DNA of 57,382 bases from an uncultured Bacilli bacterium (GTDB lineage Bacteria > Bacillota_I > Bacilli_A > RFN20 > CAG-826), in NCBI GenBank assembly GCA_944358865.1, contig CALVRV010000006.1, positions 1-57,382 on the forward strand, in the 5' to 3' direction. Position 1 is the stretch's first letter. The number at the start of each line of letters is the position of its first letter. The position numbers and the translations under genes were made by a program. Below, in pieces: positions 37,004-39,292 of the stretch. The notes under the pieces were generated by a model. It did no database searches and had not been told where the DNA came from. It saw only the letters and a list, made by a program, of their open reading frames with translations.

Positions 37004-37885
37004 ATGGATGGAATGTTATTAATTGATAAACCATTAGATTGGACTAGTCAAGATGTATGTAATAAAGTAAAAAGAACTTTAAGAATTAAAAAAGTTGGCC
37101 ACTGTGGCACCTTAGATCCCTTTGCCAGCGGTTTAATGATTGTTTTATGTGGAAATGCAACAAAATTATTGTCCTATATTTTAACATTAGATAAAAAATA
37201 TATTGCAACACTAAAACTTGGAATTGAAACTGATACTTTAGATACTGAAGGAGAAATAATTAAAGAAGAAGAAGTTAAAAAATATACTTTAGATGAAATA
37301 AATAATGTATTAGATAGTTTTAAAGGACGTCAAAATCAAACACCTCCTAAATATTCTGCTTTAAAAATTGATGGAAGACCTGCTTATGAATATGCAAGAA
37401 AAGGTCTTGATATTAATTTAAATAGCCGTCCAATTAATATTTATGACGCTAAATTGATTAAATATGATGAAAAAAATGATGAAATAACCTTTTCTTGTCA
37501 TGTTTCAAAAGGAACATATGTAAGAACTTTAGGATTAGATATTGCTAAAAAATTAAAAACAATTGGTCATTTAAATTATTTAAGAAGAACTTATATTGGA
37601 AAATATAGTGTAGAAGATGCATTAAGTGTTGATAATATTGATCCTCGATATATGATTGACATTAACGATTGTTTAGATTTTTTTCCTAGTTATGTCATAC
37701 CAGAAAGAGAAAAATTTTTAGTTATAAATGGGCAAAGAATACAAATTTTAAATCGAAAAGAAAAACAAATTGCTATTTATGATTCTAATCATATTTTGCT
37801 TGCCATATATGAAAAAGAAAATAATGATACATACTATTGTTTAAGAGGCATAAATAATGGAAATAATAAACCTAAAAGAAAATGA
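37004..37885 (+). CDS. truB: tRNA pseudouridine(55) synthase
   Basis: A 293-residue enzyme making pseudouridine 55 in the T loop. It begins MDGMLLIDKPLDWTSQDV and carries the catalytic Asp38 in VGHCGTLDPFASGLMIV, then GRQNQTPPKYSALKIDGRPA, split over motif II, and CHVSKGTYVRTLGLD. AAAAGGAAA lies before the ATG. The 3' end overlaps ribF by 29 nt. It is divergent from the TtcA-GNAT gene with a 40-nt promoter gap. Confidence 0.95.
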   Translation: MDGMLLIDKPLDWTSQDVCNKVKRTLRIKKVGHCGTLDPFASGLMIVLCGNATKLLSYILTLDKKYIATLKLGIETDTLDTEGEIIKEEEVKKYTLDEINNVLDSFKGRQNQTPPKYSALKIDGRPAYEYARKGLDINLNSRPINIYDAKLIKYDEKNDEITFSCHVSKGTYVRTLGLDIAKKLKTIGHLNYLRRTYIGKYSVEDALSVDNIDPRYMIDINDCLDFFPSYVIPEREKFLVINGQRIQILNRKEKQIAIYDSNHILLAIYEKENNDTYYCLRGINNGNNKPKRK

Positions 37886-38747
37886 TAATATTACATCTTT
37901 TCAAGATATTGTATTGTGTCTTGGCTTTTTTGATGGTGTTCATCTTGGACACCAAAAATTATTTGCCACGGCCAATAAATATCCTTATAAAAAAGGTGTA
38001 TTAACTTTTTATGGCAATTTTAAAAAAGCTAAATTGATTAACACTTTTCAAGAAAAGGTCATGCTTTTAAAACAATATGATATTGATTATCTTTTTGTTA
38101 TTGAAATAAATGAAAAATTAATTAAAACAACTTGTGAAGAATTTATAAAAAAATATCTTGCTCCTTTACATCCTAAAATAATCATATGCGGAGAAGATTT
38201 TCATTTTGGATACAATAACTGTGGTGATTGGCAATATTTAAAACAATTTTTTAATGTTGAAGTAATTCCTTTATTAAAAATTGATGGAATTAAAATTTCT
38301 TCATCTTTAATTCGTCAATTATTAAAAGAAGGAGAAATAGATAAAGTAAATAAATATTTAGGTCATAATTATTTTATTTTAGGAAAAATAAATAAAGGAT
38401 TAGGTAATGGAACTAAATTAGGATTTAAGACCGCAAATATTGATACAAGGGAAGGATATCAGATGTTAAAAAATGGTGTTTATCTTACTAAAGCCACAAT
38501 TAACAACAAAAAATATGATTCAATAACTAATGTTGGTGTCCACCCTAGTATTAGCAAATTAGATAAACCGATAATTGAAGTTCATATATTTGATGGTTTT
38601 GACTTTGATGTTGGTGATGAAATTTATTTAGAATTTGTATCTTTTATTCGAGATGAAAAACATTTTGAAAATGTTGATTTATTAAAAAAACAAGTGCTTT
38701 TTGATATTGATTTTGCAAAATCATATTTTAAGAAAAATCAACCTTGA
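37857..38747 (+). CDS. ribF: Bifunctional riboflavin kinase/FMN adenylyltransferase
   Basis: A 296-residue enzyme making FMN and FAD. The N-terminal adenylyltransferase has LGFFDGVHLGHQKL and ISSSLIRQLLKEGEI; the C-terminal flavokinase has KGLGNGTKLGFKTANID (the usual G-x-x-x-G-x-P-T-A-N region, here with K-T), NVGVHPSI and the terminal FVSFIRDEKHF. AGAGG lies 8 nt before the ATG inside truB. The 29-nt overlap with truB implies coupling. Confidence 0.93.
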   Translation: MEIINLKENDNITSFQDIVLCLGFFDGVHLGHQKLFATANKYPYKKGVLTFYGNFKKAKLINTFQEKVMLLKQYDIDYLFVIEINEKLIKTTCEEFIKKYLAPLHPKIIICGEDFHFGYNNCGDWQYLKQFFNVEVIPLLKIDGIKISSSLIRQLLKEGEIDKVNKYLGHNYFILGKINKGLGNGTKLGFKTANIDTREGYQMLKNGVYLTKATINNKKYDSITNVGVHPSISKLDKPIIEVHIFDGFDFDVGDEIYLEFVSFIRDEKHFENVDLLKKQVLFDIDFAKSYFKKNQP

Positions 38748-38763
38748 TACAACTTTTTATGTA

Positions 38764-38791
38764 TTTACAAAAGAAATATATTTAGTATAAT
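38764..38791 (+). promoter_or_regulatory. Promoter of the candidate small RNA
   Basis: TTTACA (38764-38769), 16-nt spacer, TATAAT (38786-38791); start expected near 38798. Confidence 0.65.
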
Positions 38792-38797
38792 AAAATT

Positions 38798-38909
38798 AAA
38801 GGAAGACAAGAAACGCAATGAAAGGATAGACGTTTCTAGTTTAGAAAACGATATATATATTCATGCGTTTCTTCTCCTTATTAATTATGTCCAATTTTTG
38901 GATTTTTTT
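38798..38909 (+). ncRNA. Candidate structured small RNA between ribF and rpsO
   Basis: About 110 nt bounded by its own promoter and a terminator. The outer helix pairs 38108-like arms at 38108... no reading frame of note; precise pairs are AAGAAACGC (38808-38816) with GCGTTTCTT (38865-38873), ATGAA (38818-38822) with TTCAT (38860-38864), and AAGGA (38799-38803) with TCCTT (38875-38879). An inner hairpin pairs 38831-38838 with 38842-38850. The only frame is a 3-codon ATG AAA GGA TAG. I do not recognise a known family. Confidence 0.55.
38890..38909 (+). terminator. Terminator of the candidate small RNA
   Basis: TCCAA/TTGGA stem with a TTT loop followed by seven T. Short stem, strong T run. Confidence 0.6.
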
Positions 38910-38910
38910 A

Positions 38911-38939
38911 TTGCAATTAATCTATGATTAATGTAATAT
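38911..38939 (+). promoter_or_regulatory. rpsO promoter
   Basis: TTGCAA (38911-38916), 17-nt spacer, TAATAT (38934-38939). Confidence 0.7.
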
Positions 38940-38945
38940 AGGCAT

Positions 38946-39022
38946 TGCGACTTATTCTAAGATTAATGAATCCTCAACGTTAATCATGGAATAAGCTAAG
39001 AATTTAAAAGGAGGAAAAAATC
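38946..39022 (+). promoter_or_regulatory. Candidate S15 autoregulatory leader
   Basis: CTTATTC (38951-38957) pairs with GAATAAG (38989-38995); after a 3x3 internal loop GATTAATG (38961-38968) pairs with CGTTAATC (38978-38985), including a U-G next to a G-C at the loop end, the kind of G-U/G-C motif S15 recognises in 16S rRNA. The Shine-Dalgarno lies about 15 nt beyond the stem. Confidence 0.55.
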
Positions 39023-39292
39023 ATGGCACTTACTAAAGAAGAAATTCAAAATATAGTGACCGAATATGGTAAAAATCCAAAAGATAGTGGTTCTACTGAT
39101 GTTCAAATTGCATTATTAACACATCAAATTAATCGCTTAACTGCTCATTTAAAAGAACACAAAAAAGACCATTCTTCTCGTCGTTCACTATTAGTTTTGG
39201 TAGGCAAAAGAAGAGCGTTATTAGATTATCTTGCCCGCACCGATCGTGAAGATTATTTAAGATTAATCGCTAAATTAGGCTTACGTAAATAA
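39023..39292 (+). CDS. rpsO: 30S ribosomal protein S15
   Basis: An 89-residue S15, the usual length. It shows [39 protein letters not shown] and KRRALLDYL, the 16S rRNA-binding helices. AAGGAGG precedes the ATG. Own promoter and structured leader upstream and a strong terminator downstream; elsewhere it is commonly followed directly by pnp, here a lipoprotein gene intervenes. Confidence 0.97.

Follow-up and report, generated by a model that had tools for sequence, protein, structure and literature searches.

In Escherichia coli, the gene for the small RNA SraG/PsrO lies beside rpsO, between rpsO and pnp. In Staphylococcus epidermidis, a noncoding RNA of ~116 nt, jaeL-118, was found by RNA-seq between ribF and rpsO (PMC5343137), and autoregulatory leaders of ribosomal protein S15 occur in several unrelated forms in Firmicutes and other bacteria (PMC4137082, PMC7247131). 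We suspect that jaeL-118 is the S. epidermidis rpsO leader itself.

The locus described here belongs to an uncultured Bacilli bacterium of the gut (assembly GCA_944358865.1; 1.19 Mb in 39 contigs, ~26% G+C), and the window, that is, the whole stretch of DNA analysed, comprises 57,382 nt of contig CALVRV010000006.1. Its gene order, with names taken from a reading of the translations, is infB, rbfA, a minus-strand gene, truB, ribF, rpsO, a lipoprotein-like gene and pnp. Between the stop codon of ribF (riboflavin kinase/FAD synthase; 37857–38747, plus strand) and rpsO (39023–39292, plus strand; the orthologue in a genome of the same genus is 91% identical) there are 275 nt, which hold a candidate small RNA of ~112 nt (38798–38909, plus strand) with a predicted start at ~38798 and a predicted end in a run of T. 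We consider this unit, with a probability of about one half, to be a lineage-specific short transcription unit, most simply a recent orphan sRNA candidate that would also end ribF transcription.

Anatomy of the candidate unit

Sequence and promoter scoring place a sigma-A type promoter-like site, TTTACA-16-TATAAT as the preliminary description of this DNA had read it, at 38764–38791 of the plus strand (−35 at 38764–38769, −10 at 38786–38791), ~7 nt before the helix of the unit and with 11/12 matches. The whole genome contains 98 sites with at least 11/12 matches, counting both strands, and 48 of them fall in noncoding DNA, which by a simple ORF count makes up about one fifth of the genome; this several-fold enrichment implies that some are real promoters. 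When 97 promoter sites with at least 11/12 matches were ranked by the stability of the following 89 nt, the unit came second, after a structured leader preceding a gene judged from its beginning to be rpsJ and ahead of a tRNA gene, a ranking that favours a genuine start of a structured RNA. A structured leader of ~120 nt that follows a strong promoter and precedes an rpsJ-like gene (L188:500–690) has no match at Rfam gathering score.

In the minimum-free-energy structure, an outer imperfect helix of 20 pairs joins both ends of the unit, its 5' arm at 38799–38822 and its pyrimidine-rich 3' arm, ending in TCTCCTT, at 38860–38879, and encloses an inner hairpin at 38831–38850. This agrees with the ~19 paired positions and inner hairpin seen earlier, as does the pairing of AAGGA (38799–38803) with TCCTT (38875–38879) at the base of the helix. 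The free energy of the 112 nt is −29.5 kcal/mol, compared with −15.6 ± 2.9 kcal/mol for shuffled sequences (z = −4.8), none of 200 shuffles being as good. Equally stable folds occur in many noncoding stretches of the genome, in counts made contig stretch by contig stretch without joining them, although the majority of the ones looked at proved to be tRNA, rRNA or coding sequence. Two similar inverted pairs stand in tandem at 38808–38872, AGAAACG-N15-CGTTTCT and AGAAAACG-N-CGTTTCT, so that alternative local hairpins are possible; nowhere else in the genome do AGAAACG and CGTTTCT pair within 80 nt.

The idea that the helix masks a Shine-Dalgarno-like element says little: AAGGA is not followed by any convincing start codon, and the only ATG in range opens a three-codon ORF 14 nt away. 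No plausible peptide was found in the unit, the plus strand offering only ATG AAA GGA TAG, and the earlier view that it encodes no protein holds. On the minus strand (~38878–38840), AAGGAG precedes by 9 nt an ORF of seven codons (ATG AAT ATA TAT ATC GTT TTC TAA), for which no promoter was noticed and which is probably due to chance. Elsewhere in the same genome (L164:17640–17780), a possible TTG start is preceded by a long imperfect hairpin that pairs CTCCTT with AAGGAG, an arrangement resembling a sequestered ribosome-binding site.

At the 3' end, the predicted structure includes a weak intrinsic-terminator-like stem, GTCCAA-TTT-TTGGAT (38889–38903), with seven T at 38903–38909. The TCCAA/TTGGA stem and T run first described are thus present, but as a terminator the element is weak: it has only two G-C pairs and ~−4 kcal/mol, and the terminator scan does not list it (38889–38909 falls below the scan threshold), although for this AT-rich genome, whose terminator-like sites have a median of −4.6 kcal/mol, such an energy is ordinary. 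Compared with what characterizes an intergenic sRNA gene, then, the promoter-like site and the folded body are in place, and the terminator is the weak part.

The same anatomy gives rise to a close rival, which we regard as possible: the hairpin would belong to the ribF operon as its 3' untranslated region, the long stem and terminator ending the transcripts and shielding their 3' end, and the promoter would be a chance match in AT-rich DNA, with no independent RNA. The stretch that holds the unit starts directly after the ribF stop codon, and about half of the 11/12 sites lie in coding DNA, where they presumably arise by chance. Moreover, the inverted repeat extends by six A-T pairs (AATTAA/TTAATT) upstream of the predicted start, and is therefore not exactly framed by it, and the minus strand folds equally well (z = −5.9), as with any inverted repeat, which makes folding silent on which strand, if any, is transcribed and leaves the strand of the unit to be set by the promoter and the T run only. 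Against this explanation, chance would not often put an 11/12 site at the correct distance from the helix, and in the relatives the space from ribF to rpsO contains no terminator and no hairpin, so that this is not an ancestral operon end.

Distribution among relatives

The closest relatives in public genomes, recovered by a RibF-guided scan, are metagenome-assembled "Bacilli", "Erysipelotrichaceae" and "Mollicutes", many of them from rumen or gut. Relatives of ribF are present in 184 of 196 genomes of the family, and the gap was compared at 60-odd loci that have ribF and rpsO together, several of which are represented twice. In nearly all relatives keeping the pair, the gap measures 94–180 nt, mostly ~95–130 nt, and in the two genomes of the genus where the pair can be compared directly, the gaps are 96 and 111 nt, with only the rpsO promoter and leader inside. 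The few longer gaps hold, by inspection, other genes or other repeats. The gap of the window is ~160 bases longer than those of the relatives, and the unit is absent from every comparable one. In a third genome of the genus, an exported endonuclease-like gene stands between ribF and rpsO (L019:2050–3610, L005:1–1500), which indicates that the gap tolerates insertions in this genus.

No second copy was found in the genome itself, in phage records and viral contigs, or by the RibF-guided scan; within the family, blastn at a loose cut-off returned nothing beyond short AT-rich fragments, many of which covered the promoter, and across the order (279 genomes) blastn returned no homologue. A covariance model built from the single sequence matched, in its own genome, only the unit and its reverse strand, and found no homologue in a family sample and all genomes of the genus (best outside match 25 bits, E = 0.09); a model of this kind detects diverged homologues poorly, so that a copy elsewhere could have escaped it if strongly diverged. 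With no homologue anywhere examined, the helix shows neither covariation nor signs of selection.

Rfam (release 15) recognized, at gathering score, only three tRNAs in the whole window, in agreement with the initial description of the unit as unassigned, and 6S RNA (RF00013) had no covariance-model match in the genome or at the unit. In E-value mode the best matches were the plant family MIR390, on the minus strand of the unit, and caiA, both at ~28 bits and far below their gathering scores of 77 and 55.5. Identity with a microRNA is rejected, this match being sub-threshold and on the minus strand of an inverted repeat, and so is identity with caiA, whose sub-threshold match lies within the rpsO leader, not the unit.

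A conserved structured RNA family of the clade is likewise rejected, given that no homologue with a covarying helix was found in the genus, family and order searches and the gaps of the relatives are too short to hold the unit. Absence of a transcript together with lack of conservation of the helix had been named beforehand as counting against an undescribed small RNA, and of these two the second applies in the relatives examined. Of that proposal, a structured, noncoding element with promoter-like and terminator-like ends and outside Rfam stands, whereas conservation does not. The unit appears to be restricted to its species, represented by a single genome, or to close kin, and is probably a recent, species-level feature and not a new conserved RNA family.

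The ~160 extra bases, together with a structure that is an inverted repeat confined to one lineage, could also mark a fold-back insertion or a decayed mobile repeat without RNA function in the ribF–rpsO gap. We consider this unlikely, for no second copy was found in the genome, the order or the phages, and visual inspection showed no clear target-site duplication. Membership in a fold-back or MITE-like repeat family is rejected on the single copy in the genome and the order. Taken together, the unit is best called a correctly seen, non-random feature, either an orphan sRNA candidate or an operon-end hairpin without conservation.

Proposed mode of action and the neighbouring rpsO leader

For the preferred reading, a short transcription unit of this lineage, we envisage that a strong sigma-A type promoter just past ribF would start an RNA of ~112 nt, which would fold as one long imperfect hairpin stabilised by the closed helix of its 5' and 3' ends and would stop at the weak intrinsic terminator just ahead of the rpsO promoter. 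The same terminator would also halt transcripts coming from ribF, separating the ribF operon from rpsO. What the analysis shows is the sequence anatomy, a fold more stable than chance and the absence from relatives, from which transcription, termination and stability of this RNA are inferred. If the RNA acted in trans, its seed would be the pyrimidine-rich, anti-Shine-Dalgarno-like 3' arm, UUCUUCUCCUU. The fuller version of this scheme, in which a recently born, expressed sRNA regulates mRNAs in trans through that arm while also decoupling ribF from rpsO-pnp, seems to us rather improbable, and any trans target is speculative: across 474 ORFs, the best predicted pairing of the unit with a start region has −30.0 kcal/mol, and for 40 shuffled RNAs the best pairing ranged from −26.7 to −41.2 kcal/mol, most at or below −30, so no target stands out. 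If expressed, the unit would be an example of an orphan sRNA and a new transcription boundary arising between two otherwise adjacent genes. It would not constitute a new RNA family.

Directly downstream, sequence, covariation and the gaps of the relatives delimit an rpsO promoter (TTGCAA-17-TAATAT) and a structured rpsO leader (38912–39022, plus strand), both intact, and the separateness of the unit from this leader, asserted in the preliminary description, is borne out. Across the family, the leader itself (~38941–39022; GCGACTTATTC...GGAATAAGCTAAGAATT...AGGAGG) is conserved and shows compensatory changes. In a set of 16 sequences, one from the window and 15 from relatives, its two-helix model has 25 cells changed on both sides, against 11.4 ± 2.2 after shuffling (none of 500 shuffles as high), and a covariation score of 0.249 against 0.132; whenever the helix partners were slid, the percentage paired and the covariation score both fell. 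The leader has no match at Rfam gathering score and could be a variant S15 leader of this group of Bacilli that is not yet listed. The conserved, covarying RNA at the locus is this leader and not the upstream unit, and we reject the unit as the S15 leader, as its terminator-like stem closes it off ahead of the rpsO promoter and the conserved leader is a different stretch. That the unit might instead be a second, upstream leader, read through from 38798 past its terminator so that the hairpin would serve as an rpsO-pnp attenuator, is very improbable: the terminator is weak and the next gene downstream, in the same orientation, is rpsO, but inspection by eye revealed no convincing antiterminator pairing of the hairpin with the terminator stem, a promoter and a conserved leader already belong to rpsO itself, and the relatives manage without the unit. 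The lesson of this locus is that a good single-sequence fold with a promoter and a terminator is insufficient, and that what evolution conserves here is the neighbouring rpsO leader.

Comparison with known systems

Like 6S RNA, the unit is a long imperfect hairpin closed at both ends, but the 6S model has 187 positions against 112 nt here, and the unit is unconserved and without an Rfam match. It shares with the S15 autoregulatory leaders the property of being a structured RNA adjoining rpsO; the S15 leader of this locus is at ~38947–39022, whereas the unit lies upstream of it, has its own terminator-like stem and is unconserved. SraG/PsrO also adjoins rpsO, on the pnp side, and the unit adjoins it on the ribF side. 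With jaeL-118, which comes from a different bacterial group, the unit has in common a similar length, the position between ribF and rpsO and the orientation, a likeness that is a positional parallel only.
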